Positions 42,067 through 54,836 of a stretch of DNA of 64,000 bases are shown here, in pieces. The stretch is from the NCBI RefSeq assembly GCF_004138485.1, contig NZ_RYEV01000006.1, positions 620,001 through 684,000 of the forward strand, given 5' to 3'. Below the pieces are notes generated by a model that saw only the letters and a list, made by a program, of their open reading frames with translations, was not told the origin of the DNA and did no database searches. Within the stretch, counting starts at the first letter, position 1, and each line of letters opens with the position of its first letter. This stretch comes from Peristeroidobacter soli (GTDB lineage Bacteria; Pseudomonadota; Gammaproteobacteria; Steroidobacterales; Steroidobacteraceae). Position numbers and translations under genes: made by a program.

Positions 42067-43293
42067 TCACGTTGGCAGCAGTGTCTTCAGGTCGAAGCGC
42101 TCATCCGCGGCTTGCTGTGGGGTCAGCTCGATATTCCGAGCGATCAGCTTCCGAGCGAGCAAGTGCAGGGCCGGACGATTGAGCGTTTCCACGCAAGCCA
42201 GGCGGCCGTCGCGCAGGTGCAGGACGCTGCAGCTGGCGCCGTTCGAGTCGCCGCGAATCACTGTCTGGTCGCTCGCGAGCGCCAGACCGGCGATCTGCAG
42301 TTTCAAGTGCGCTTGGTCGCTCCAGAACCAGGGCACAGCACGATAGCGCTGCGGCCGACCTGCGATCGCCGCGGCTACGCAGCGCGCTTGGTCCGACGCA
42401 TTCTGAATCGACTCGATGCGGATTAATGCGCCGTTCGCATGGTCGCTGCGATGGGCGGCAACGTCGCCGATGGCGCTCACGTGCGGGTCCGAGGTGCGCA
42501 AGTGCTCGTCCACGACGATGCCGTTGTCCACCGCCAGGCCGCTGGCCGCGGCAAGCTCTGAATTGGGCATGACGCCCACGCCGATCAGCACCAGCGAAGC
42601 TGCGAAAGTTTCACCGTCCTTCGTCTGCACTCCGCCGACGCGCCCGTTCGAACCGATGATGCCGGTAATTGCGGTGTTGAACCGCAGCTGCACGCCGAGC
42701 TTTTCGTACTCGGCCACACAGAGGCTGGCAATGCTGCTCGACACCGCGCGAGCCATCGGACGGTCGGCAAGCTCGAGCACGCTGACGCGCATGCCGAGTT
42801 GTGTCGCGCAGGCTGCGAACTCCAAGCCAATGAACCCGGCACCGATGACGACCACATGTTTGCCGGGTTGCATCTGCCCGCGCAGGATGTCAGCGTCGGC
42901 CAGCGTGCGCAGGTAACAGACGCCCTCCAGATCCGCGCCAGGAATTGTGAGCGGGCGATTGCGTGCGCCCGTGGCCAGGATCAAATGTTCGTAAGCAACG
43001 ATTCCGCCGTCGTCGAGGATGACGTCGCGGCGGAGTCGATCGATCTCGGCGGCAGGCCTGCCAGATAGCAGTTCGATGTTTCTATCCGCATAGAACGATG
43101 CAGGCCGCAATGCGAGTCGCGGTGTGGGCGTGTGTCCGAGCAGATATCCCTTGGACAAAGGCGGACGTTCGTAGGGCGGGTACGGTTCCGCTCCGATCAT
43201 TACGATACGTCCGCTGTATTGCTGTTCCCGTAGAGACGCCGCGGCTTGCAAACCCGCGTGGCCCGTTCCAACGATCGCTACGGTGGGTTGCAT
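42067..43293 (-). CDS. FAD/NAD-dependent ferredoxin reductase
   Basis: 408 residues. The FAD dinucleotide fold is V-G-T-G-H-A-G-L-Q-A-A near 8-18 with P-Y-E-R-P-P-L-S-K at 40-48. The NAD fold is V-I-G-A-G-F-I-G-L-E near 149-158, and the late FAD contact is A-I-G-D-V-A near 273. This is the putidaredoxin-reductase type that feeds P450-linked [2Fe-2S] ferredoxins. The window has two such ferredoxins and two P450s at 54-64 kb and no other reductase, so this is the likely electron source. Its start overlaps the upstream lyase gene by 16 bases. Confidence 0.9.
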   Translation of the reverse strand: MQPTVAIVGTGHAGLQAAASLREQQYSGRIVMIGAEPYPPYERPPLSKGYLLGHTPTPRLALRPASFYADRNIELLSGRPAAEIDRLRRDVILDDGGIVAYEHLILATGARNRPLTIPGADLEGVCYLRTLADADILRGQMQPGKHVVVIGAGFIGLEFAACATQLGMRVSVLELADRPMARAVSSSIASLCVAEYEKLGVQLRFNTAITGIIGSNGRVGGVQTKDGETFAASLVLIGVGVMPNSELAAASGLAVDNGIVVDEHLRTSDPHVSAIGDVAAHRSDHANGALIRIESIQNASDQARCVAAAIAGRPQRYRAVPWFWSDQAHLKLQIAGLALASDQTVIRGDSNGASCSVLHLRDGRLACVETLNRPALHLLARKLIARNIELTPQQAADERFDLKTLLPT

Positions 43294-44234
43294 GATGCTG
43301 AACTCTGGTCAGTCGCTGGCAGGGGATAGCGTCGGTTCGCCGGTCCGGCTTTCGCGACCTGACCGGCGACGTCATGACTCACTAGAGCCGGCATGGCCTG
43401 CGCCTGGCGCAGCAGTGCCGCCAGATCAATGCCGGTCGTGAACCCCATCTCGTGCAACATGTGGACGACATCTTCGCTGCATACGTTGCCGCTGGCACCC
43501 GGCGCAAAGGGACAACCGCCGAGCCCGGCAAGCGAAGCATCGAAGCGATCGACGCCGGCGGCGATGCCCGCGAGCACGTTCGCGAGCCCCATGCCACGCG
43601 TGTCGTGGAAGTGCAGCGTCAATCGCAGCGACGGCCACCGCTGCCGCACGCTTTGACTCATCGAAAAGACCTGCGCAGGGTTGGCAACGCCGGTGGTGTC
43701 GCACAGCGTGACGCGTTCCATGCCGAGCGCAGCGATGCGATCGAGCAGAGAGAAAACGTCCGCCGCCGCGATTCGGCCTTCGAAGGGGCAGCCGAATGCG
43801 GTGGAGATGGAAACATTGAGCGGCACTCGATCGCGGACCACGGCTGCGATCTTTGCGAACTCGGACAACGAATCCTCGGGTGCCATCCGAAGATTCGCCT
43901 GGCTGTGGGTGCGGCTGGCCGACATGACCAGATTCAGTTCGTCCAGTTCGCAGGCAAGCGCGCGCTCGGCGCCGCGAGCGTTCGGCACCAGGGCGGCGTA
44001 TTCGACGCCCGGCACGCGATCGATACCGGTCAACACAGCTTCCGCGTCCGCCATCGAGGGCACGGCACGAGGCGAAACGAACGAAGTTGTTTCTATCTTC
44101 GGCACGCCCGCGTGCGACAGCGCGTTGATGAGCTCGATTTTCTCGTGCGTGGCGATCTGTCTCGGCTCGATCTGCAGCCCGTCTCGAGGTGCGACGTCCT
44201 GGATGTGAATGTATCTGGGCGACAAGTCGAGCAC
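43278..44234 (-). CDS. Hydroxymethylglutaryl-CoA lyase family protein
   Basis: 318 residues from a GTG seven bases after the CoA-transferase stop; a longer ATG form would overlap that gene by about 60 bases. HMGL-like TIM-barrel residues are present: D-V-A-P-R-D-G-L-Q near the start, the metal pair in L-H-F-H-D-T-R-G, and the active-site cysteine loop G-L-G-G-C-P-F-A-P-G-A-S-G-N. Family members cleave HMG-CoA to acetyl-CoA and acetoacetate, or related 3-hydroxy acyl-CoAs. The coupled CoA-transferase would supply the CoA ester. Confidence 0.88.
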   Translation of the reverse strand: MLDLSPRYIHIQDVAPRDGLQIEPRQIATHEKIELINALSHAGVPKIETTSFVSPRAVPSMADAEAVLTGIDRVPGVEYAALVPNARGAERALACELDELNLVMSASRTHSQANLRMAPEDSLSEFAKIAAVVRDRVPLNVSISTAFGCPFEGRIAAADVFSLLDRIAALGMERVTLCDTTGVANPAQVFSMSQSVRQRWPSLRLTLHFHDTRGMGLANVLAGIAAGVDRFDASLAGLGGCPFAPGASGNVCSEDVVHMLHEMGFTTGIDLAALLRQAQAMPALVSHDVAGQVAKAGPANRRYPLPATDQSSASCNPP

Positions 44235-44241
44235 GACAGTC

Positions 44242-45423
44242 TCAGGTGCATTTTGTTGTGGAGGCGGGCGGCGCGGCGCCCAGGATTTCTTCCGTGTGCG
44301 CACCGAGCCGCGGTCCGAGCCAGCGTGTTCGGCCCGGGGTCGCCGAAAGCTTGGGTACGATGCCGGGAATCGTCATGCGTAACCCATCGGGCAGCTGCGT
44401 CGATTCGAGCATGCCACGCGCCTGCAGTTGTGGATCGTTGACGATGTCGGCGGCTGAATGAATTTTGCTCGCGGGCACGGCAGCGAGTTCCAGCAGTCGC
44501 ACGACTTCGTCGATGGGCATTCGGGCCGTCCAGGCATTGATGGCCGCGTCGAGCTCATCGGCGCGGGCGACGCGACCGTCGTTTCGCTGCAAGTCGGGGT
44601 CCTTGGCCAGATCCTCTCGATCGATGGCGATCATCAGTCGCTGGAACAGAGAATCGGCGTTCGCTGCGATCACCACGTGCCGCCCGTCGGCGCATTCATA
44701 GGTATTGGAAGGAGCGATGCCGGGCAGGCTTGCGCCGCTGCGCTCGCGGACGAAGCCCAGGGTGGAATATTCCGGGACCAGGGACTCCATGACGGCGAAC
44801 ACGGCTTCATTGAGCGCCATGTCCACGATCTGTCCCGCGCCACCGTTCTTGACGTGATGGAGCGCGACCATCGTCCCGATCGTGCCGTACAGCGCTGCAA
44901 GCGTGTCACCGAGGCTCACGCCAGTGCGCACCGGCGGCCGATCGGCGAAACCGGTGACGTAGCGCAGGCCGCCGACGGCCTCGGCAATGGCGGCGAAGCC
45001 GGGCTGGTCGCGTTTCGGGCCGTCCTGTCCGTAGCCCGAGACTCGCAGCATCACGAGCCTGGGATTGATTCGCGACAACTCATCCCAGCCGAGCCCCCAG
45101 CGTTCCAGGGTACCGGGCCGGAAGTTCTCGATGACCACGTCCGCGCGCTCGACCAGCTTCTTCAACGCTGCCTGGCCGTCGACGCCGGCGAGATCCAGCG
45201 CAACGGATTTCTTGTTCCGGCTCTGTACATACCACCACAGCGACGTGTCGTTGTGCAGCTTGCGCCACGTGCGCAGCGGATCGCCGCCCGGCGGTTCGAT
45301 CTTGATCACTTCCGCGCCGAACTGCGCGAACAATGAGCCCGCGTAGGGCCCGGCGATCAGCGAACCGAGTTCGATGACGGTGATGCCACTGAGCGGCAAT
45401 GCGCTCGAATCGTCCACGCTCAT
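44242..45423 (-). CDS. CaiB/BaiF family CoA-transferase
   Basis: 393 residues beginning L-S-G-I-T-V-I-E-L-G-S-L-I-A-G-P-Y-A-G, with F-G-A-E-V-I-K-I-E-P-P and the likely catalytic Asp173 in S-L-G-D-T-L-A-A-L. In front of an HMG-CoA-lyase-like gene the best guess is CoA transfer to a hydroxymethylglutarate-like or other branched dicarboxylic acid, as done by the mammalian SUGCT homologue. First gene of the minus-strand operon with the lyase and ferredoxin reductase. A GTCCC-N8-GGGAC palindrome lies 51 bases upstream. Confidence 0.88.
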   Translation of the reverse strand: MSVDDSSALPLSGITVIELGSLIAGPYAGSLFAQFGAEVIKIEPPGGDPLRTWRKLHNDTSLWWYVQSRNKKSVALDLAGVDGQAALKKLVERADVVIENFRPGTLERWGLGWDELSRINPRLVMLRVSGYGQDGPKRDQPGFAAIAEAVGGLRYVTGFADRPPVRTGVSLGDTLAALYGTIGTMVALHHVKNGGAGQIVDMALNEAVFAVMESLVPEYSTLGFVRERSGASLPGIAPSNTYECADGRHVVIAANADSLFQRLMIAIDREDLAKDPDLQRNDGRVARADELDAAINAWTARMPIDEVVRLLELAAVPASKIHSAADIVNDPQLQARGMLESTQLPDGLRMTIPGIVPKLSATPGRTRWLGPRLGAHTEEILGAAPPASTTKCT

Positions 45424-45474: not shown

Positions 45475-45492
45475 GTCCCCGGGGCGGGGGAC
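45475..45492. promoter_or_regulatory. Putative LuxR-type operator, site c
   Basis: GTCCC-CGGGGCGG-GGGAC, an 18-base palindrome in the divergent promoter of the CoA-transferase and aldo/keto reductase genes. The same arms and spacing recur at 48559 and 53354. Confidence 0.65.
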
Positions 45493-45628
45493 GCGGATTC
45501 AGCGCCCGCGCACGGCGTCCCGTGCCGCAGGGACAGCGAGCCCGGTTACGAATGTGATATCCATTCCTGGCGGCGTCGGACAGGCGCCGGATTTTTCAAA
45601 CGACGGTCGACGCCATCGAGGGGGCTCA

Positions 45629-46636
45629 ATGAAATATCGAACGCTGGGGCAGGGACTGCAGGTATCGGCGCTGGGGCTGGGCTGCTCTCCACTGTCCGGC
45701 ACGCCCCTTGGGGACTACGGCTACGTCGAGGATGACGTTGCGCTGGCGATCATGCATCGGGCCATGGATATGGGCGTTACGATGTTCGACAGCGCCGAAT
45801 GTTATGGCCCATGGCGCAGCGAAGAGCAGATCGGTCGCGCGCTCAAGGGGCGCAAGCGCGAGCAGATGGTGATCGCCACCAAGTATGGCTTCACCTTCGC
45901 GAAGGATGGCAGTTCCGTAACTGGGCAGGACGGCAGCGCTGCGAGCGCCCGGCGCGTCTGCGAAGAGGCGCTTCGGCGGCTCGGTACCGATTACATCGAT
46001 CTCTATTATCTGCATCGGGTCGATGCGAAGGTGCCCATCGAGGAGTCCGTGGGCGCGATGGCCGAGCTGGTTCGTGAAGGAAAGGTTCGCTACCTTGGTC
46101 TCTCGGAGCCGGGCATGGATACGTTGCGTCGTGCGCATGCCATCCATCCGATCGCCGCCGTGGAGTCGGAATATTCCTTGTGGGAGCGGCGCGTCGAGGT
46201 GGACGTGTTGCCGACGCTGCGTGAGCTGGGCGTCGCGCTCGTGCCGTTCGCTCCGCTGGGTCGCGGCTTTCTCACCGGTGCCATCACTTCGACCAAGGAT
46301 CTCGGCGAGCGCGACTTGCGCCGTTCCGGATTCGACCCTCGCTTCAACGAAGGCAACTTTGAGAAGAACTATCGGATGGTCGAAGCCGTGCTCGATGTGG
46401 CGCGCGCGCACGGGACCACCGGAGCACGCATCGCCATCGCGTGGCTGCTCTCGAAAGGAAACGACATCATTCCAATCCCTGGCGTCCGCAAGTTGGTCGA
46501 GTTGGAAGACACGTTCGGCGGGGTGGACGTGCAGCTGACCGAGCTGGATATTCGTAAGCTCGAAACTGCCGCGCCTGTCGGTGGAACGGCGGGCGACCGC
46601 TATTCCAAAGCACAGTTGGATCAAGTACGACGCTGA
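45629..46636 (+). CDS. Aldo/keto reductase
   Basis: 335 residues starting M-K-Y-R-T-L-G; a longer frame runs through the promoter and is rejected. The catalytic tetrad can be placed as Asp54 and Tyr59 (D-S-A-E-C-Y-G), Lys85 (A-T-K-Y-G-F) and His129 (Y-L-H-R). NADP-binding G-L-S-E near 164 and the late I-P-I-P-G-V-R-K are typical of the YajO/AKR13-like group. It reduces or oxidises a carbonyl or alcohol intermediate. Its 3' end overlaps the convergent IclR gene by 16 bases. Confidence 0.9.
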   Translation: MKYRTLGQGLQVSALGLGCSPLSGTPLGDYGYVEDDVALAIMHRAMDMGVTMFDSAECYGPWRSEEQIGRALKGRKREQMVIATKYGFTFAKDGSSVTGQDGSAASARRVCEEALRRLGTDYIDLYYLHRVDAKVPIEESVGAMAELVREGKVRYLGLSEPGMDTLRRAHAIHPIAAVESEYSLWERRVEVDVLPTLRELGVALVPFAPLGRGFLTGAITSTKDLGERDLRRSGFDPRFNEGNFEKNYRMVEAVLDVARAHGTTGARIAIAWLLSKGNDIIPIPGVRKLVELEDTFGGVDVQLTELDIRKLETAAPVGGTAGDRYSKAQLDQVRR

Positions 46637-47472
46637 GGCGCGCTGGCGCCGTGCTCGCGTTCGGAGCGCGGCGCCGGAATCTGGCTCGCCCCTTCCGGGC
46701 GCGTGAGTTGCGACTCCAGTCGTTCTACTTCGGTGCGAAGCATCGTCGCCAGCTCCTGTCGGCGTTCAGCGGCCAGGCGCTGTTCGATGGCGGCGACTGA
46801 CAACGCGCCGATGCATTCGCCATGCGCATCGCGCACGGCGACGGCGACACCGCAGCTGCCGGCGGTCAGGCGACCGGGATTGAATGCGAAGCCGTGACGG
46901 TGTGCGAGCTCGCGATCGTTGCGAAGGACGGCGGGCGAGTACCCTGGATAACGAGTCGCAATTTCGGCAGCGTTCGCCGCGATCGCCGCCTCGGCATCCT
47001 CGTCTGACAATGCGGCCAGAATAGCCATGCCGCCCGCGCCAATGCCGAGCGGCAATCGGTCACCGACTTTCAGCGCGTGCGTCCTGATCGGAAACGCGCC
47101 TTCCTCCCGGTGCAGGCACACTGACTGCCAGTCTCGCCGCACTGTCAGAAAGCTGGTATCCCCGGAGACTGCGGAAAGCCGATACAGTGCCGGCAGCGCC
47201 GTACGGTGGATGCCATAACGCTCGGCTGCGAGCGTGCCGAGTACGAATGCTTCCGGGCCGAGGTGATAGCTCATCGAATCCCCGTCGCGGTGGATCAGCC
47301 CCTCCCGTTCGAGCGCCGAAAGGAGCCGATGCGCTGTCGGCTTGGACAGCTTTGCTCGCCGCGCCAGATCGCTGAGGCGTGCGCCGTGTGCGGCGTTCGC
47401 CGCCACCAGCCGCAACAGCAGGATTGCCCGACCCAGACTTTGCGAACGGCCGCCCCGAGGCTTCCCCGCCAC
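46621..47472 (-). CDS. IclR family transcriptional regulator
   Basis: 283 residues. The winged helix is at about 12-70 (L-S-D-L-A-R-R-A-K-L-S-K-P-T-A-H-R-L-L-S-A-L-E-R-E-G-L). An IclR effector domain follows at about 85-255 with L-P-L-G-I-G-A-G-G-M-A-I-L-A and the late segment S-C-G-V-A-V-A-V-R-D. Members respond to aromatic or small-acid ligands. It is transcribed divergently from the LuxR-type gene. Two related inverted repeats in that gap, one 17 bases from its own start, suggest autoregulation and control of the LuxR gene. Confidence 0.92.
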   Translation of the reverse strand: MAGKPRGGRSQSLGRAILLLRLVAANAAHGARLSDLARRAKLSKPTAHRLLSALEREGLIHRDGDSMSYHLGPEAFVLGTLAAERYGIHRTALPALYRLSAVSGDTSFLTVRRDWQSVCLHREEGAFPIRTHALKVGDRLPLGIGAGGMAILAALSDEDAEAAIAANAAEIATRYPGYSPAVLRNDRELAHRHGFAFNPGRLTAGSCGVAVAVRDAHGECIGALSVAAIEQRLAAERRQELATMLRTEVERLESQLTRPEGASQIPAPRSEREHGASAPQRRT

Positions 47473-47488
47473 GATGTTCCTCGTGTGT

Positions 47489-47505
47489 GTTCCACATTAG
47501 GAAAC
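47489..47505. promoter_or_regulatory. Putative IclR operator 1
   Basis: GTTCCACATTAGGAAAC, an imperfect inverted repeat just upstream of the IclR start. It shares 12 of 17 bases with the repeat at 47610-47626. Confidence 0.5.
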
Positions 47506-47508
47506 AAA

Positions 47509-47525
47509 TTCATGGAACCCATGAA
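47509..47525. promoter_or_regulatory. Perfect palindrome in regulator promoter
   Basis: TTCATGG-AAC-CCATGAA, perfect 7-base arms, three bases past IclR operator 1. It may be a binding site of unknown owner. Confidence 0.4.
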
Positions 47526-47609
47526 TCCCCTCGCCGCGTGCTTTACAGCGCGGCGAACTCAGCATATGGTCGGTACCGTAGACCTGTCAAAGCAGGCGCG
47601 AAGTAAAGT

Positions 47610-47626
47610 GTTTCATATTGTGAGAC
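47610..47626. promoter_or_regulatory. Putative IclR operator 2
   Basis: GTTTCATATTGTGAGAC, 44 bases before the LuxR-type gene. It is related to the repeat at 47489, and both fit the pattern GTTYCAYATTRKGARAC. Confidence 0.5.
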
Positions 47627-47670
47627 ATCCGGCGGGCCTTCATAGGGCCGCACGGGCAAGGGGGTGAAGT

Positions 47671-48540
47671 ATGGCGGCGAATCCGCATTCGCTCGATCAT
47701 GCCGCCGCGCCAGTCGCGGCGGGAGATTTGTCGCAGCTCATCAGCTCCATCGGTGAGCCTGCTTTCGAACCTCGCCTGATGGATTATCTGCATCACCTCT
47801 GTGGTGCCGAACACTGCTCCATCTTCCAACTCGGCTCCGCCGAGGAGCCGGTGCAGTTCACCGCTGTCAGCCTCGACGGCACCGACACAGCACGCCGTCA
47901 GGCGAGCATCTACATTGGCCGTGAATGGTGGCGTCGCGACCCGGCATTTCGCGAAGCTCAGCGTGGGCTGGACGCTCCACGGCCGAGTTTAGTGCGTCTC
48001 GACGTGCGCACATTGGAAGACCTCGAGCTGCGCGACATCCTTTACGGCCGCACTCACATTCGCGATCGCCTGCTGGTCTGTGGCGCGTCGGCCGGCATGG
48101 CCTTCGGCGTCAGCATTCTGCGCTCCGACCGACGCGGCCCGTTCGATGCGGGTCAGATCGAAGAGCTGGGTGGCGTCTCCGGCACGCTGCTGTCGCTGAT
48201 CGCAAAGAACGCTGGCGTGCGCTGGCAGAAATCCAGCCTGGCGAGCGCGCTCACTTCGCTGGCCGAGATCGAAGCCTGCCTTCTCAAGGCGCCACAGCAG
48301 TTTCCTCGGCGTGAAGCCGAAGTGTGCGCGCGCATTCTGTACGGCATGACCTCGCTTGGCATCGCGCTCGACCTGGGCATCGGCGAGGAGACGGTGATGA
48401 CGTACCGCAAGCGCGCGTACCAGCGGTTGCAGCTCGGCAGTCATCGCGAGCTGCTGTTGTGGTATCTCGCACTGTGGAGTTCTCTGCCGGCTCAAGCGGC
48501 GCGGTTGGCGGCGGTACGCGTGGAGCGGCACGACGCTTGA
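47671..48540 (+). CDS. LuxR-type helix-turn-helix transcriptional regulator
   Basis: 289 residues. The C-terminal HTH reads P-R-R-E-A-E-V-C-A-R-I-L-Y-G-M-T-S-L-G-I-A-L-D-L-G-I-G-E-E-T-V with a run of Y-R-K-R-A-Y-Q-R-L, a good GerE/LuxR domain at about 215-270. The N-terminal 200 residues form no recognised receiver and lack clear homoserine-lactone pocket residues; a GAF-like sensor is possible. It sits at the centre of the 42-64 kb island, and three identical palindromes lie in promoters around it, so it is a likely island-wide activator. Confidence 0.88.
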   Translation: MAANPHSLDHAAAPVAAGDLSQLISSIGEPAFEPRLMDYLHHLCGAEHCSIFQLGSAEEPVQFTAVSLDGTDTARRQASIYIGREWWRRDPAFREAQRGLDAPRPSLVRLDVRTLEDLELRDILYGRTHIRDRLLVCGASAGMAFGVSILRSDRRGPFDAGQIEELGGVSGTLLSLIAKNAGVRWQKSSLASALTSLAEIEACLLKAPQQFPRREAEVCARILYGMTSLGIALDLGIGEETVMTYRKRAYQRLQLGSHRELLLWYLALWSSLPAQAARLAAVRVERHDA

Positions 48541-48558
48541 TTGCCGTCCAGGCCGGCT

Positions 48559-48576
48559 GTCCCTTGGGATGGGGAC
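48559..48576. promoter_or_regulatory. Putative LuxR-type operator, site a
   Basis: GTCCC-TTGGGATG-GGGAC, 34 bases upstream of the hydrolase start and directly after the LuxR gene. It has the same arms and spacing as sites b and c. Confidence 0.65.
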
Positions 48577-48610
48577 GGAAGTGTCCAGTGGTGGCGGCTA
48601 AGGTTGCGCC

Positions 48611-49819
48611 ATGCTCAACATCCCCACATCGCCGACTCAGCATGCCGACAGCGAGCTGCAATTCGACTGGGTGCATGTCACGCACGGCGGCACGCCGGCC
48701 TTCGTGGAGACCTACGGGTTCTCGGGCAGCCAGAACGTCGTCAACCTCGAGGGCGTGCTGATCCGTCCTCGCAATCGGCCGTCCCGGACGTTGCATGTCT
48801 TCATGCATCCGTCATCCACACTGCAACTGTTGCCTGTGCCACGTGCATTCGCCAAGCGCGGCGCTCACGTTCTGTGCGCGGGTAGCCGATACGCGCGCAA
48901 CGATACCGCGGGCGTTCTGGAGAACGTGCTGGTCGATCTCGGGGCTTACATCCATTACGCACGCGAAGTTTTGGGTTACGAGAAGATCGTGCTGGCGGGT
49001 TGGAGCGGCGGCGGCGCGCTCGCGATGTGCTATCAGGCCGAGGCCGAGCAGCCAAGTATCGAACGCACGCCGGCGGGAGATGCAATCGATCTGCGTTCCG
49101 CGCGTCTGATTCCAGCCGATGCGGTGATCTTCCAAGCCGCGCACGTATCGCGCGCGCAGTTGCTGCTCGACTGTATCGATCCGTCGGTGCTCGATGAGAA
49201 CGACCCCGATCGGCGTAATGCCGAGCTGGATATCTACGATCCGAAGAATCCCAATCAGCCGCCGTATTCGGCGGATTTCATCCGCGCGTATCGCGCCGCG
49301 CAGCTACGTCGCATGCGAGCAATCACGGCGCGTGTGAAGCAGACGCTTGCGGATCTACGGAGCCGTGGCACTGGCGAAGTCGAGCGTGGCTTGATCACTC
49401 ATCGAACGATGGCCGATCCACGCTATCTCGACAGCACGCTGGATCCGAACGATCGCCGTCCCAAGTGGTGCTACCTCGGTGTGCCCGAGACCGTGAACAA
49501 CGGGCCGGTGGGCCTGGCGCGCTTCACGACGCTGCGCTCGTGGCTGTCGCAATGGTCCATCGAGGACAGTCGCGGAGACGCGTGTGCGTGCGCCAAGCGC
49601 GTGAGTGTGCCGTTGCTGGTGATGGAGAACTCGGCGGACGACGCCGTGCCGCAGCCACATTCGCGCATGCTGTTCGACGCGGCGACGACACAGGACAAGA
49701 CGTTCACCGTGATTCGAGGGGCGAACCATTACTACGCCGGGCAGCCGGAACAGCTCGAACAGGCCATGCGCCAGATTTTCGACTGGTCGGGCGCGCGCGG
49801 CTTCGATGTCGGCAGTTGA
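48611..49819 (+). CDS. Alpha/beta hydrolase
   Basis: 402 residues with the nucleophile elbow G-W-S132-G-G-G and a likely acid/His pair later in L-V-M-E-N-S-A-D-D-A-V-P and G-A-N-H-Y-Y-A-G. A long insertion at about 150-310 forms a lid. No signal peptide. It leads the 2-oxoacid dehydrogenase operon, 23 bases before the lipoyl gene, and could hydrolyse an ester, lactone or diketone to give the substrate for that complex. An operator-like palindrome lies just upstream. Confidence 0.85.
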   Translation: MLNIPTSPTQHADSELQFDWVHVTHGGTPAFVETYGFSGSQNVVNLEGVLIRPRNRPSRTLHVFMHPSSTLQLLPVPRAFAKRGAHVLCAGSRYARNDTAGVLENVLVDLGAYIHYAREVLGYEKIVLAGWSGGGALAMCYQAEAEQPSIERTPAGDAIDLRSARLIPADAVIFQAAHVSRAQLLLDCIDPSVLDENDPDRRNAELDIYDPKNPNQPPYSADFIRAYRAAQLRRMRAITARVKQTLADLRSRGTGEVERGLITHRTMADPRYLDSTLDPNDRRPKWCYLGVPETVNNGPVGLARFTTLRSWLSQWSIEDSRGDACACAKRVSVPLLVMENSADDAVPQPHSRMLFDAATTQDKTFTVIRGANHYYAGQPEQLEQAMRQIFDWSGARGFDVGS

Positions 49820-49842
49820 TCGCAATTGAGAGGACCGCAAGC

Positions 49843-50070
49843 GTGGATGTAATTGTCACCGAGCAGGTGCTGGGCGAGGAGAGTGAGGCCGACCTCGTCG
49901 AGTGGCTGGTTGCCGACGGCGCGAGCGTGCAGGCCGGGCAGCCCATCGCGGAGTTGGAAACCGCCAAGGTGCGTGTGCAGATCGAGTCGCCCGCCGCGGG
50001 CACCGTGAGCATCCTCGTCGGACCCAGCTCCGTGGTCGAGCTGAATGCCGTGATCGCACGCGTCGCCTGA
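49843..50070 (+). CDS. Stand-alone lipoyl (biotinyl-lipoyl) carrier protein
   Basis: 75 residues from a GTG; the whole gene is one lipoyl domain. The modified lysine is Lys42 in E-L-E-T-A-K-V, flanked by P-I-A-E and I-E-S-P-A-A-G-T-V. In normal E2 proteins this domain is fused to the catalytic core. Here the E2 catalytic gene at 52097 lacks it, so this small protein is the swinging arm supplied in trans. It could also serve as a biotinyl domain, but the E1/E2 neighbours argue for lipoate. Confidence 0.88.
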   Translation: MDVIVTEQVLGEESEADLVEWLVADGASVQAGQPIAELETAKVRVQIESPAAGTVSILVGPSSVVELNAVIARVA

Positions 50071-50085
50071 CAGGAGAACGTCCGA

Positions 50086-51069
50086 ATGAATTTACGCGAA
50101 CACGGTCGGATGGCGCTGCGAATGATGCTGCTGATCCGCGAATTCGAGCAGCGTCTGAAGGGATTCGCCGACGAGAAATTGATCCGCGGTTCGACGCATC
50201 CCTCCGTGGGCATGGAGGCAGTGGCGGTCGGCGTATCGATGGCGCTGGGCCCGAACGACTGCATCGCCAGCAATCATCGCGGCCACGCGCACTGTCTGGC
50301 GCGTGGCGCCGATCCAGGACGCACGCTCGCGGAAATTTTCGGACGCGCCGACGGCTATTGCAAAGGCAAGGGCGGCTCCATGCATATTGGCGTGCAGGAG
50401 TTGGGAATTCTCGGTACCAACGGCATCGTCGGCGCGGGCATCGGGCTAGCGACGGGCGCGGCGCTTGCGGCGTCGGTGAGCAACCGGAACGAAGTCGCGG
50501 TCGCGTATTTCGGCGACGGCGGATCCAACCAGGGGGTGCTGGCCGAGAGCATGAATCTCGCGGCGATCTGGAAATTGCCGGTGATCTTCGTCTGCGAGAA
50601 CAACCATTACGCACAATCTTCGGCCATCGAACGCATGTTCGCGCAGCCGCAGATCAGTCAGCGCGGTCCCGCCTATGGCGTTCCTTCTGTCGATGTAGAC
50701 GGCATGGACGTGGCGGCGGTTTACGACGCCGCGGAAGCGGCCGTTACACGCGCGAGAAGTCAAGGCGGTCCGACGCTCATCGTCGCCGACACCTATCGCT
50801 TCCTAGGTCACATGGCCGACGACACGCAGATGTATCGCGCACTCGTCGAAGTCGATGAGTGGCGCGGTAAATGTCCCATCGATCGGCTGGCAAACACACT
50901 CACCGCCGCGGGCCTGCTCTCGGATCAGGAGCGAAATGAGATGAGCGCCGAAGCAAAGCGTGAGGTTGATGATGCCGAACACATGGCGCGGCAGTCGCCG
51001 GTGCCGTCGGCGCAGTGGGCGTTCACCGATGTCGATACCTGGCAAGCGGCGGAAGGAGTGGTTGCGTGA
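50086..51069 (+). CDS. 2-oxoacid/acetoin dehydrogenase E1 alpha subunit
   Basis: 327 residues. Thiamine-diphosphate motif G-D-G-G-S-N-Q-G is at 143-150 with its closing Asn in C-E-N-N-H-Y at 170-175. S-N-H-R-G-H-A-H at 62-69 and G-K-G-G-S-M-H at 94-100 are the conserved E1 alpha active-site segments. The pattern is closest to acetoin dehydrogenase/pyruvate-type E1 of the two-subunit kind. Ribosome site AGGAGAA precedes the ATG. It overlaps E1 beta by four bases. Confidence 0.9.
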   Translation: MNLREHGRMALRMMLLIREFEQRLKGFADEKLIRGSTHPSVGMEAVAVGVSMALGPNDCIASNHRGHAHCLARGADPGRTLAEIFGRADGYCKGKGGSMHIGVQELGILGTNGIVGAGIGLATGAALAASVSNRNEVAVAYFGDGGSNQGVLAESMNLAAIWKLPVIFVCENNHYAQSSAIERMFAQPQISQRGPAYGVPSVDVDGMDVAAVYDAAEAAVTRARSQGGPTLIVADTYRFLGHMADDTQMYRALVEVDEWRGKCPIDRLANTLTAAGLLSDQERNEMSAEAKREVDDAEHMARQSPVPSAQWAFTDVDTWQAAEGVVA

Positions 51070-52097
51070 GCGTAGTAGCTGCTGCAGCTGTAGATGTGTC
51101 CCAGGCTGCCGCCGGCAGCCGTCCCGTGCCGATGTGGCGCGCCTTGAATGCAGCGCTGCGCGATGCGATGAGCGCCGATGCAAGCGTCTTCGTCATGGGC
51201 GAAGATCTGACGCGCTGGGGGACGGGCGGAGGCATCTACGGAGTCACGAAGGGCTTGCTCGAACAATTCGGTGCCGCGCGGGTGCGCGATACGCCGATCA
51301 GCGAAGAGGCCATTGTCGCGGCCGCAGTCGGCGCCGCTGCGCGCGGCGTGCGGCCGGTCGTCGAGATCATGTACTCGGACTTCATGTTGCTCGCGATGGA
51401 CGCCATCGTGAACCAAGCGGCCAAGGCACGGTACATGTTCGGCGGTCAGTTCCAGATTCCTTTGGTGATTCGTACCAACGGCGGTTCCGGTATCGGCAAG
51501 GCCGCGCAGCACTCGCAATCGCTCGAGACGTTGTTCGCGCACATTCCGGGGCTGGAAGTCGTGGTGCCGGGCACGCCGGCGGATGCTTATGGACTGATGC
51601 TATCGGCCATCGCGAGCCCCAACCCCACGATCTTCCTGGAGCACAAGGCCCTGTACAACGAGCGCGGTGTGGTTGCTTCGGAGCCGATTCCGCTAGGTCG
51701 TGCGTCGGTGGTGCGCGGAGGTAAAGATGTCACAGTGATCGCGACTCAGCTGATGCGCAAGCGAGTGCTCGAAGCGGCGGAGATCCTCGCTGCCGAACAG
51801 ATCGAGATCGAAGTCGTCGATCCGCGCACGCTCTATCCGCTGGATATGGAAACGATCGCCGCTTCAGTCACGCGGACGGGGCGCGTGCTGATCGCTCATG
51901 AAGCGCCGCTGCTGTATGGATTCGGTGCGGAGTTGGCCGCGCAGCTTGCGTCACGGCTGTGGCGCTCGTTGAAGGCTCCGCCACAACGACTGGGTGGCGC
52001 ACGCACGCCGATTCCCTATGCGGAAGATCTGGAGAAGCGCGTCATACCCGACGTTGCGGCGGTGGTCTCGGCCGTTCGCGGACTGGTGAAGTCTTGA
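51066..52097 (+). CDS. 2-oxoacid/acetoin dehydrogenase E1 beta subunit
   Basis: 343 residues from a GTG in a GTGA overlap. It carries F-V-M-G-E-D-L, D-T-P-I-S-E-E-A-I (with the catalytic Glu), G-V-R-P-V-V-E-I-M-Y-S-D-F near 95-110 and the closing A-H-E-A-P-L-L-Y-G-F-G. It forms the alpha2beta2 E1 with the preceding gene, decarboxylating a 2-oxoacid or cleaving a diketone or acyloin onto lipoamide. Its stop overlaps the E2 start by one base. Confidence 0.9.
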   Translation: MSVVAAAAVDVSQAAAGSRPVPMWRALNAALRDAMSADASVFVMGEDLTRWGTGGGIYGVTKGLLEQFGAARVRDTPISEEAIVAAAVGAAARGVRPVVEIMYSDFMLLAMDAIVNQAAKARYMFGGQFQIPLVIRTNGGSGIGKAAQHSQSLETLFAHIPGLEVVVPGTPADAYGLMLSAIASPNPTIFLEHKALYNERGVVASEPIPLGRASVVRGGKDVTVIATQLMRKRVLEAAEILAAEQIEIEVVDPRTLYPLDMETIAASVTRTGRVLIAHEAPLLYGFGAELAAQLASRLWRSLKAPPQRLGGARTPIPYAEDLEKRVIPDVAAVVSAVRGLVKS

Positions 52098-52807
52098 TGA
52101 ACAAGAGCGACATGTCGGCAGTCACCGCGATTCCTATGAGCCGGCTGCGTCGGACCATCGCGGAACGGTTGACCCTGAGTGCGACCACGGTGCCGCAGTT
52201 CACCGTCACTGTCGCCGCGGATGTCACGCAACTCCTGCAACTGCGAGCTGAAGCGAAGGAGCGTGCCGGCGGTGCCTACAGCATCACGGACTTCGTGCTC
52301 GCCGCGGTTGCCCGCTCGCTGCTCGAATTCCCGATGTTGAATGCACACACCGACGGGCGGGCGATCTGGCCTCGCACCGAGGTCAATATCGGGGTGGCGG
52401 TGGACGTCGACGGCGGGTTGCTGGTACCCGTGATCCGCCAGGCCGAGCGGTTGTCATTGCGCGAGCTGAGTGCCGAAGCGCGGCGGCTGGCGGAAGCCGC
52501 GCGAGCGCGCACTCTTTCGGCGGCGGACATGTCGGATGGCACCTTCACCGTGTCCAATCTCGGCATGTTCGGCGTCGATCAGTTCTGCGCCATCGTCAAT
52601 CCCGGCGAGTCCGCGATTCTGGCGGTGGCCGCGGTGGTGTCGACGGCGGTTCCGCACGGCGATGGCTTCGTCGCTCGAATGCTCATGAAAATGACATTGA
52701 CCGCCGACCACAGGTTGGTCGACGGCGCGTTGGCCGCGCGTTTCCTTGGTGTGTTGCGCGGCCGGTTGGAGGATGCAGATGCGTGGCGTGCGGAAGCCGA
52801 GAGTTGA
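52097..52807 (+). CDS. Dihydrolipoamide acyltransferase E2, catalytic domain only
   Basis: 236 residues that correspond to the E2 catalytic core alone. It starts at I-P-M-S-R-L-R-R-T-I-A-E-R and ends with the active site A-D-H205-R-L-V-D209-G. There is no N-terminal lipoyl domain and no recognisable E1/E3-binding domain, both normally present. The lipoyl arm is encoded separately at 49843. No E3 (dihydrolipoyl dehydrogenase) gene is in the operon, so E3 must be borrowed from elsewhere. The gene is coupled to E1 beta. Confidence 0.88.
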   Translation: MNKSDMSAVTAIPMSRLRRTIAERLTLSATTVPQFTVTVAADVTQLLQLRAEAKERAGGAYSITDFVLAAVARSLLEFPMLNAHTDGRAIWPRTEVNIGVAVDVDGGLLVPVIRQAERLSLRELSAEARRLAEAARARTLSAADMSDGTFTVSNLGMFGVDQFCAIVNPGESAILAVAAVVSTAVPHGDGFVARMLMKMTLTADHRLVDGALAARFLGVLRGRLEDADAWRAEAES

Positions 52808-52829
52808 TCGGGGGCCGCGGGCTCGCCGC

Positions 52830-53294
52830 TCACAGCACTTCGTAGATCTCGTAGACGGCGGCATCGCGTTCGCGCCGGCCGGTGCCGACGACCATGATGT
52901 CGTTGAGCCAGCCCAGCGTCGTGGTCGGCGCTTCGAACGAACCGACGATACGGTAGTAGTCCTCGCCCGGCGCAATGAGCTCGCCGCGATGAATGCGCGC
53001 CACGACTTCAGGCGAGCCGCCGCGCCGTCCGGTGTAAGTGAAATAGATCGCTTCACCGTCGTGGGTCTGCAGCATCAAGCGCACGTCGAGGGCGAGCACG
53101 CCATCGGGCCGGATCATCAGTGCATCGGCGCCACCGCTCAATACGATGCCGCTCAAACGCTCGCCGGCAAATTCGCCGCCGCTGACGCGCATGATTCGGC
53201 GCTGGTAGCCCATCGCCGTCGGACTGACGAGCACGGGCGGGTCGGTGACTCGAGCTGTCAGCGTGAACAGGCGGCGCAGAGAGATGTCGTTCAT
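52830..53294 (-). CDS. DUF3237 family protein
   Basis: 154 residues from ATG 53294; longer frames run back through the VOC gene promoter. It opens L-R-R-L-F-T-L-T-A-R-V and has G-G-A-D-A-L-M-I-R-P-D-G-V-L-A-L-D-V-R-L-M-L and Y-F-T-Y-T-G-R-R-G-G-S, which are DUF3237 hallmarks. These small beta-barrel proteins are common in aromatic and terpenoid catabolic clusters but have no proven reaction. It is divergent from the VOC/SDR/P450 operon and shares its promoter with operator site b. Confidence 0.85.
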   Translation of the reverse strand: MNDISLRRLFTLTARVTDPPVLVSPTAMGYQRRIMRVSGGEFAGERLSGIVLSGGADALMIRPDGVLALDVRLMLQTHDGEAIYFTYTGRRGGSPEVVARIHRGELIAPGEDYYRIVGSFEAPTTTLGWLNDIMVVGTGRRERDAAVYEIYEVL

Positions 53295-53353
53295 GGCGAA
53301 TTCCGTGAAGCAGGCCTGGGATCGATGATGCCGCAGCAGCCGGCTGGGCAGCG

Positions 53354-53371
53354 GTCCCATCGCACGGGGAC
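53354..53371. promoter_or_regulatory. Putative LuxR-type operator, site b
   Basis: GTCCC-ATCGCACG-GGGAC in the divergent promoter of the DUF3237 and VOC genes. A short second palindrome, GACAGCTGTC, overlaps its right end. Confidence 0.65.
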
Positions 53372-53443
53372 AGCTGTCGCGGTCCAACGTGGTTACGTTA
53401 TCACCTGAAACAGCGAATGGCTCAGACGAGAGGGGGCTTGGGT

Positions 53444-54067
53444 ATGTCGGCAACGAAGGAACAACCAGTAGCACGCGTGGCGCGGTCCGCCAATCCGGGG
53501 CTGACGCCGCTGATGCTCAATCACGCGGCTTGGGTGACGCACGACGTCGAAGCTACCGCCGAGTTCTATACGCGCGTCATGGGTATGGAACTGGCGAGCA
53601 CCGTGTACGACGACCGCGTGCCGTCCACCGGCGATCCGTTTCCTTACTTTCATATTTTCTTCCGCATGGCCGACGGCTCGACCATCGCCTTCTTCGAGGC
53701 GCCGGGACTGCCGCAGCGTCCGGCCGTGACCCATCCGGCCTACGACATCTTCGATCACTTCGCGATGCAGGCGAAAGATCGCGCCGAAGTGGATCGCTGG
53801 CACGCCTGGCTGGTGAGCAACGACGTCGAGGTGGTCGGTCCCACCGATCACAAGGGGCTCATCTACAGCATCTATTTCTACGATCCCAACGGCATTCGCC
53901 TGGAGATCACCACGCCGCTGGACAAGGACTGGAACTTCCACACCGCGCAAGGTCAGGCCGATCTGAAGGCCTGGTGCGACACCAAGAAAGCGGCTCAGCG
54001 CGGCGGTCTGGATGTAACCGCCGAGCTGGTCGCGTTCATCCGCAAGCAGCGTCAACGTTACAAGTAA
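53444..54067 (+). CDS. VOC (glyoxalase/extradiol dioxygenase fold) protein
   Basis: 207 residues from the ATG preceded by GAGGGGG; an ATG at 53417 has no such site. A beta-alpha-beta-beta-beta module starts L-N-H-A-A-W-V-T-H-D-V-E-A-T-A-E-F-Y-T near residue 25. Likely metal ligands are His in this segment and H-F-A-M-Q-A, with Glu in I-R-L-E-I-T-T. It could be a ring-cleaving dioxygenase, an isomerase or a lyase. It leads the SDR/P450 operon. Confidence 0.82.
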   Translation: MSATKEQPVARVARSANPGLTPLMLNHAAWVTHDVEATAEFYTRVMGMELASTVYDDRVPSTGDPFPYFHIFFRMADGSTIAFFEAPGLPQRPAVTHPAYDIFDHFAMQAKDRAEVDRWHAWLVSNDVEVVGPTDHKGLIYSIYFYDPNGIRLEITTPLDKDWNFHTAQGQADLKAWCDTKKAAQRGGLDVTAELVAFIRKQRQRYK

Positions 54068-54071
54068 CACC

Positions 54072-54836
54072 ATGACCAGGATCGCTCTCATCACGGGTGG
54101 CGCGGGCGGCATCGGGCTGGCAACGGCACGCCGTTTTGCCGAGGCCGGCATGACGGTCGCGCTCGCCGATCTCGATTCGGACGCGTGTGTCGCGGCGGCG
54201 AAGCTGTCAGGTTCGAAACACATCGGTGTGCGCATAGACGTGTCCGACGGGCAGAGCGTGGTGAGTGCATTCGATGAAGTGGAACGGCGACTCGGGCCCA
54301 TCGCCGTGCTCGCTCATTTCGCTGGCGTGCTTGGCCAGCGCCTCGATCAGCCGCGACCGGGCATCGACGAATATGACCTGGAGAGTTGGGAGCACGTGTT
54401 CGCAATCAACGCGCGCGGTGCGTTTCTAGTCATTCGAGAGATGGCGCGCCGGCGCAAGGCGACCCCGGTGCCGCACGGTCGCATCGTCACGATCTCTTCG
54501 GCGGCGGCGCAGCTCGGCGGTTATCAGGCGAACGCTGCTTACATCGCGTCGAAGGGCGCCGTGTTGAGTCTGACTAAAGGCGCGGCGCGCGAGCTGGCTC
54601 AATACGGCATCACCGTCAACGCCATCGCTCCCGGTCCCATCGATACGCCGATGTTGCATGCGGCCCGCGGCCAGTCGGCCGGCGATGAAGGCTTTTCGCG
54701 CCTGAGCATGTTGCCGGTGGGCAGGATCGGACGCCCCGAGGAAGTGGCTGCGGCAGCCGCGTATCTCGTTTCCGAGGAAGCCGCATTCGTCACTGGAGCG
54801 ACGCTCGACGTCAATGGCGGATTGAGGATGCAGTGA
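54072..54836 (+). CDS. Short-chain dehydrogenase/reductase
   Basis: 254 residues. Cofactor motif T-G-G-A-G-G-I-G at 8-15, then an acidic A-D-L-D after strand 2 that favours NAD. Catalytic Ser142/Ser143, Tyr157 and Lys161 (A-A-Y-I-A-S-K). It ends with G-A-T-L-D-V-N-G-G. Four bases after the VOC gene and overlapping the P450 gene by four. Likely oxidises the alcohol made by one of the P450s. Confidence 0.92.
   Translation: MTRIALITGGAGGIGLATARRFAEAGMTVALADLDSDACVAAAKLSGSKHIGVRIDVSDGQSVVSAFDEVERRLGPIAVLAHFAGVLGQRLDQPRPGIDEYDLESWEHVFAINARGAFLVIREMARRRKATPVPHGRIVTISSAAAQLGGYQANAAYIASKGAVLSLTKGAARELAQYGITVNAIAPGPIDTPMLHAARGQSAGDEGFSRLSMLPVGRIGRPEEVAAAAAYLVSEEAAFVTGATLDVNGGLRMQ

Follow-up and report, generated by a model that had tools for sequence, protein, structure and literature searches.

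A GTCCC-N8-GGGAC palindrome as the predicted operator of a LuxR-type regulator in a catabolic island of Peristeroidobacter soli

Which regulator controls a group of catabolic genes whose promoter gaps carry one and the same short palindrome, and does it switch them on or off? The question is raised by a 64-kb stretch of the Peristeroidobacter soli genome (contig NZ_RYEV01000006.1, positions 620,001 to 684,000; the whole stretch is referred to as the window, and all positions are counted from its first letter). There the exact 18-base pattern GTCCC-N8-GGGAC, two five-base arms held eight bases apart, recurs around the gene for a LuxR-type protein (47671-48540). The four copies are predicted to be operators of this protein, which would act as a class II activator of the island; that it binds them, what ligand it senses and whether it activates are all predictions from sequence, and we put the probability of this interpretation at roughly 0.85.

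A first-pass annotation, made from the letters alone, had listed three palindromes, at 45475, 48559 and 53354. These are exact, but the count is four, a copy at 45517 having been overlooked. Operators 1 (45475..45492, GTCCCCGGGGCGGGGGAC) and 2 (45517..45534, GTCCCGTGCCGCAGGGAC), both exact matches without an assigned strand and with centres 42 bp apart, share the gap between the divergent genes for a CoA-transferase (44242-45423, - strand) and an aldo-keto reductase (45629-46636, + strand); operator 1 probably drives the CoA-transferase/HMG-CoA-lyase/reductase operon on the - strand, and operator 2 presumably serves the aldo-keto reductase. Operator 3 (48559..48576, + strand, GTCCCTTGGGATGGGGAC) is 5′ of the hydrolase operon, between the end of luxR (48540) and the hydrolase start (48611), and operator 4 (53354..53371, + strand, GTCCCATCGCACGGGGAC) lies between a DUF3237 gene (- strand) and a VOC gene (+ strand; start at 53417 or later). 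For DUF3237 the gene caller chose a start at 53360, 7 bases into the site, while the likely start is the ATG at 53294. All four sites are thus in promoter gaps, as had been claimed of the original three, and all four 8-base spacers differ, which upholds the earlier argument that they are not a copied repeat.

The simplest objection is that the clustering arose by chance in GC-rich promoter DNA. Shuffling of the window gave 0.07 copies per shuffle, and none of 100 shuffles reached four, in line with the earlier rough estimate of well below one chance match in 64 kb. When up to two mismatches are tolerated, the 42 matches in the window are no more than background (39 expected), and the signal therefore resides in the exact arms. 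The genome-wide scan that had been proposed found seven exact copies in 9.37 Mb (17 contigs) and not the many copies across coding DNA that would have spoken against the idea; the reversed control pattern occurred 10 times. The motif is not over-represented genome-wide, and yet four of its seven copies fall within 7.9 kb, a clustering far beyond chance (Poisson p 5e-11; at the rate of the reversed pattern, 2e-10). Coincidence can point to the reversed pattern being equally common in the genome (10 versus 7) and to the background level of the two-mismatch sites; set against the clustering, and against the recurrence of the site beside homologous regulators at 60 of 80 loci described below, its likelihood is negligible.

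The regulator was followed through its relatives. The family neighbourhood was covered by 60 genomes, the source genome included; 15 of them had some match to the window LuxR at E 0.001, and a convincing near-full-length homologue was found in only one other, from the same genus (G008; 32%, E 2.6e-22). Its 3.7-kb locus (L010) contains a single exact site, GTCCCAAGATCATGGGAC, immediately 3′ of luxR and 5′ of a hydrolase gene; the arrangement matches the layout at 48559, with different catabolic genes as neighbours. The GTDB genome collection was then scanned with both LuxR proteins (window and L010) and the best 80 of 158 relatives were taken as loci, their best segments being 27-51% identical to the window LuxR; set A comprises L030-L065 and L067 (37 loci) and set B comprises L066 and L068-L109 (43 loci, mostly Bradyrhizobium). 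At least one GTCCC-N7/8-GGGAC site is present in 60 of the 80 loci (28/37 in set A and 32/43 in set B). The N8 form accounts for 83 sites, compared with 3 for the reversed control, and the N7 form for 16 sites in 12 loci, all of them among the first 33 (L030-L062). The N7 form is found mainly in Comamonadaceae-type loci, in some of which N8 sites occur alongside it.

A ranking of palindromes gave a similar picture. Of 21,504 arm-by-spacing combinations scored in 38 loci (set A and L010), with normalisation by spacing as the unnormalised version was swamped by GC-rich words, GTCCC-N8 came first with 51 found, followed by TCCCC-N6, which is a shifted form of it, and GTCCC-N7. In set B, where close relatives share many palindromes, the ranking is uninformative, and GTCCC-N8 was second. 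More distant LuxR-type loci (L011, L024, L026-L029 and L112-L115) had no exact N8 site. The choice of the 47671 product as the best candidate, originally a positional guess, is therefore backed by L010 and by the 60 site-bearing loci of the 80 found by homology, and the suggested comparison of related islands likewise shows the N7/N8 site to be kept.

A second possible owner is the IclR-type regulator encoded at 46621-47472 (- strand), with the LuxR protein a bystander. IclR-family regulators often bind palindromes, and the window and nine set-A loci have iclR near luxR, all ten with the site; these loci reach the Comamonadaceae (Variovorax, Ramlibacter, Rhodoferax and Caenimonas). However, among 32 site-bearing set-A loci an IclR homologue (E 1e-5) is present in 10 and absent from 22, LuxR and sites occur in the absence of IclR in L010 and in most Bradyrhizobium loci, and the promoter geometry set out below, centred near -43, suits a LuxR-type activator. 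Ownership by the IclR protein is accordingly judged very unlikely. As a separate observation, the proximity of iclR and luxR (window 46621-48540; L111:10969-12819) is kept in a Comamonadaceae group as well as in the window, and IclR is possibly a second input to the same pathway.

If the LuxR protein binds these sites, the distance to the promoter should indicate how it acts. TANNNT follows the site at a distance of exactly 22 bp in 19 of the 93 gene-directed orientations of set A (background 0.3%), with three more at 21 bp and two at 23 bp, and in 31 of 35 orientations of set B. Position 34 downstream of the site, the expected transcription start, is preferentially an A (43% in set A). A -10 element at 22 bp places the dyad centre near -43 of the inferred promoter. 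The -35 hexamer is poor, though best at the canonical 17-bp spacing; of its six bases, 2.35 match on average in the 23 oriented promoters of set A and 3.06 in 31 promoters of set B. In the window, putative -10 elements stand exactly 22 bp past operator 3 (TAAGGT, 48599..48604, + strand) and operator 4 (TACGTT, 53394..53399, + strand); operator 1 has TAGGCT 23 bp beyond it towards the CoA-transferase, whereas for operator 2 TANNNT is absent at 21-23 bp on both sides. In six cases two sites share a divergent gap. L033, with the same 42-bp separation as the window, and L037 have a -10 for each site, directed only at the gene closer to it; the window and L040 have one for the left site alone, and L035 and L058 have none.

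A fixed spacing combined with a poor -35 is the arrangement expected of a class II activator. Much the same layout might be used by a LuxR protein that represses, its operator blocking the -35 until the ligand releases it: at a 17-bp spacing the -35 hexamer would include the final base of the site, and some LuxR-type regulators do repress, a LuxR-like repressor in Comamonas being mentioned in the available part of one report (PMC8700777). A repressor, however, needs no exact distance, whereas the fixed 22 bp and the poor -35 fit dependence on an activator, and repression is considered unlikely. For activation, the following mechanism is proposed. A dimer would contact the two GTCCC arms through two GerE helix-turn-helix domains, as the dyad and the family suggest; bound some 43 bp 5′ of the start, beside the poor -35, it would activate RNA polymerase in the class II manner to which the fixed -10 distance points; and its N-terminal domain would probably sense a pathway substrate or intermediate, not an acyl-homoserine lactone. 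The predicted regulon consists of the CoA-transferase/HMG-CoA-lyase/reductase operon, the aldo-keto reductase, the hydrolase/2-oxoacid dehydrogenase operon and the VOC/SDR/P450 operon (SDR, short-chain dehydrogenase).

The position of the sites relative to genes was analysed with our own codon-based gene caller, which was compared with one annotated plasmid record. In a 41-locus sample (set A, the window, L010, L110 and L111), 53 of 57 N8 sites are clear of every called gene. Of the other four, two reach 1 and 7 bases into a gene at its edge (the 7-base case is the 53354 site, where the called start is probably wrong), and two (in L041 and L058) fall within the final 30 bases of a called gene. 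A called start is at most 280 bp from the site centre for 54 of the 57 (median distance 75 bp). In set B none of the 33 sites overlaps a called gene, 32 being upstream of a gene and one between converging genes, and of the 18 N7 sites of set A four are fully inside called genes; strictly non-coding DNA makes up 19%. On the annotated Sphingobium plasmid pMI1, exact sites are found 5′ of hydrolase/luxR and 5′ of VOC, and two one-mismatch sites (with a GTCAC arm) 5′ of two P450 genes.

Twenty-four whole genomes contain 162 exact sites, 40 of them in regulator loci that make up 0.34% of the bases (genome sizes rounded). As a control, 23 distal sites were taken, 20 drawn from the 122 outside the regulator loci and three being the other copies in the window's own genome (L001-L003); 12 of the 23 are called coding, L002 is also in a long open frame missed by the caller, and TANNNT at 21-23 bp accompanies two of the 23 and none of L001-L003. 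Of these, L125 may be genuine, since it lies in a gap on a contig that also has a LuxR gene. In another genome of the same family an exact site (L012:2188-2205) lies 34 bp 5′ of the start of a two-component response regulator gene (GerE domain, helix TVMTYVKRIYRK). Its product may be another protein that uses the operator, or the site may be there by chance.

Palindromes with GC-rich arms able to pair could also be RNA hairpins, terminators or REP-like repeats, and there is one case in which these arms do belong to a repeat: in a genome of the same genus (G007), where no regulator was detected, many of the 21 exact matches come from a repeat with arms GTCCCACT and AGTGGGAC on several contigs, which looks like a REP-type repeat. 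Against such an origin for the sites studied here, spacers are little conserved in set A, the four window sites are not copies of one repeat, and the sites lie 5′ of the -10 and would not be transcribed from that promoter. This origin is extremely improbable.

The regulator itself, a protein of 289 amino acids (47671..48540, + strand), has a GerE domain at residues 213-263 (PF00196, 33.7 bits against a cut-off of 23.5), preceded by an N-terminal region whose predicted fold is that of the quorum-sensing LuxR signal domain (alpha-beta-alpha, LasR/TraR type; VqsR, LasR and CepR2). At E 0.01 all 44 relatives match PF00196 and none of the 44 matches the autoinducer-binding model PF03472, in which the family differs from quorum-sensing LuxR proteins and LuxR solos. 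PF03472 is the entry criterion in a large census of LuxR solos, according to the available part of that paper (PMC10134790). No match to the LuxI synthase model PF00765 was found in the source genome, although 14 control genomes likewise gave none. Elsewhere in the source genome there is one PF03472-positive LuxR protein (C1:1240701-1241138, L143), distinct from the window LuxR.

The two-domain plan, signal-domain fold plus GerE, is shared with LuxR, TraR, LasR and QscR. The lux box is a dyad of 18-20 bp near -42, with two 5-base CCTGT-like arms about 8 bases apart. The window operator resembles it in its 5-8-5 layout and in its place near -43 of the inferred promoter, but differs in its GTCCC arms and in having catabolic rather than quorum-sensing genes as targets. 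VqsR of Pseudomonas aeruginosa is 16% identical to the window LuxR in the aligned domain; it acts in quorum sensing, whereas the window protein is encoded beside catabolic genes, and the arm sequence of the VqsR operator is different from GTCCC. With the response regulators FixJ, NarL and StyR only the GerE domain is held in common, since they have a receiver domain in place of the predicted signal-domain fold; the best PDB sequence matches of the LuxR profile include FixJ, NarL and one other response regulator. Similar in role, as far as the available text goes, are TeiR and TesR, LuxR-type positive regulators of catabolic clusters in steroid degraders (PMC8700777, PMC6895838), and the LuxR protein of the pdc cluster of steroid degraders, a possible activator (PMC12239570) that clusters with a luciferase-like monooxygenase, as the L088 LuxR does. 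The likeness of these three to the window LuxR is one of described role, and no GTCCC operator is mentioned for them in those portions.

Among the papers listed by searches of an open-access library (most subscription papers being outside its reach), none was found to describe this operator or a family that it would define; these include the available parts of PMC4211393 and PMC4176358. LuxR-type catabolic regulators and lux-box operators are already known; what appears to be new is the GTCCC-N7/8-GGGAC operator paired with its predicted regulator. In a tree of the LuxR proteins, which has several open forks and long branches, the regulator of the actinobacterium Amycolatopsis is nested in an otherwise proteobacterial clade, and the window protein groups with those of sphingomonads and Burkholderia. 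In 369 genomes sampled from the class of the source organism, the LuxR relatives outside the source genome were all distant; a search of the same genomes for operator plus promoter gave no matches and missed even the source genome, the pattern being too strict. From the position of the Amycolatopsis regulator, the pathway homologues in its locus (below) and the distance of the relatives within the class, we infer that regulator and pathway have been transferred between lineages. There is about an even chance that these proteins form an undescribed family of LuxR-type catabolic activators that was missed by PF03472 surveys, senses substrates and travels with GTCCC-N7/8-GGGAC between proteobacteria and actinobacteria. 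If this is true, a whole degradation pathway could be read from its operators. The regulator-operator pair itself offers a direct means of predicting, in many soil bacteria, which genes belong to a catabolic regulon, where transcription starts and which orphan genes (for P450, VOC, hydrolase and hemerythrin proteins) are part of a pathway. It also marks a LuxR-type group with a predicted quorum-sensing fold unseen by the Pfam signal-domain model and apparently serving catabolism.

The genes next to the sites are in part the same across loci. Among 80 site-adjacent genes (84 listed, minus three luxR and one duplicate) there are nine for P450, nine for VOC, eight for hydrolases and seven for hemerythrin. 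Homologues of the window hydrolase, 63-70% identical, are present in 16 of 84 loci and those of the VOC protein in 11 of 84; in the Amycolatopsis locus L045 the two are 67% and 71% identical to those of the window. In Bradyrhizobium loci such as L088:8533-12028, luxR and the site adjoin a luciferase-like monooxygenase gene and one more gene, which encodes a P450 in the L088-like L070, L074, L080 and L098, and the kinds of gene resemble the pdc steroid cluster.

In the window itself, genes were named from Pfam and NCBIfam. The - strand operon is led by the family III (CaiB) CoA-transferase (44242..45423), followed by an HMG-CoA-lyase-like enzyme (43278..44303) and a ferredoxin reductase-like flavoprotein (42067..43293). 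Operator 3 precedes, on the + strand, an alpha/beta hydrolase of 402 amino acids (48611..49819), a free-standing lipoyl domain protein of 75 amino acids (49843..50070) and the 2-oxoacid dehydrogenase components E1 alpha (50086..51069), E1 beta (51132..52097; Pfam was run on the frame 51015-52097) and E2 catalytic core (52097..52807; Pfam on the frame 51959-52807), the starts of the last two being gene calls. The DUF3237 gene (52830..53294, - strand, start inferred from the ATG) is divergent from the operon led by the VOC-fold (glyoxalase/extradiol) protein (53417..54067), with a short-chain dehydrogenase (54072..54836) and a cytochrome P450 (54833..56020) that has CYP199A4 among its best PDB matches, all on the + strand. 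Further neighbours in the island include a TonB receptor, an MFS protein and a second P450. The CYP199-like P450, VOC, hydrolase and HMG-CoA-lyase together point to an aromatic or branched substrate. Finally, the 2-oxoacid dehydrogenase set (49843-52807) is split in an unusual way, with the lipoyl domain as a separate 75-residue protein and the called E2 consisting of the catalytic core only.

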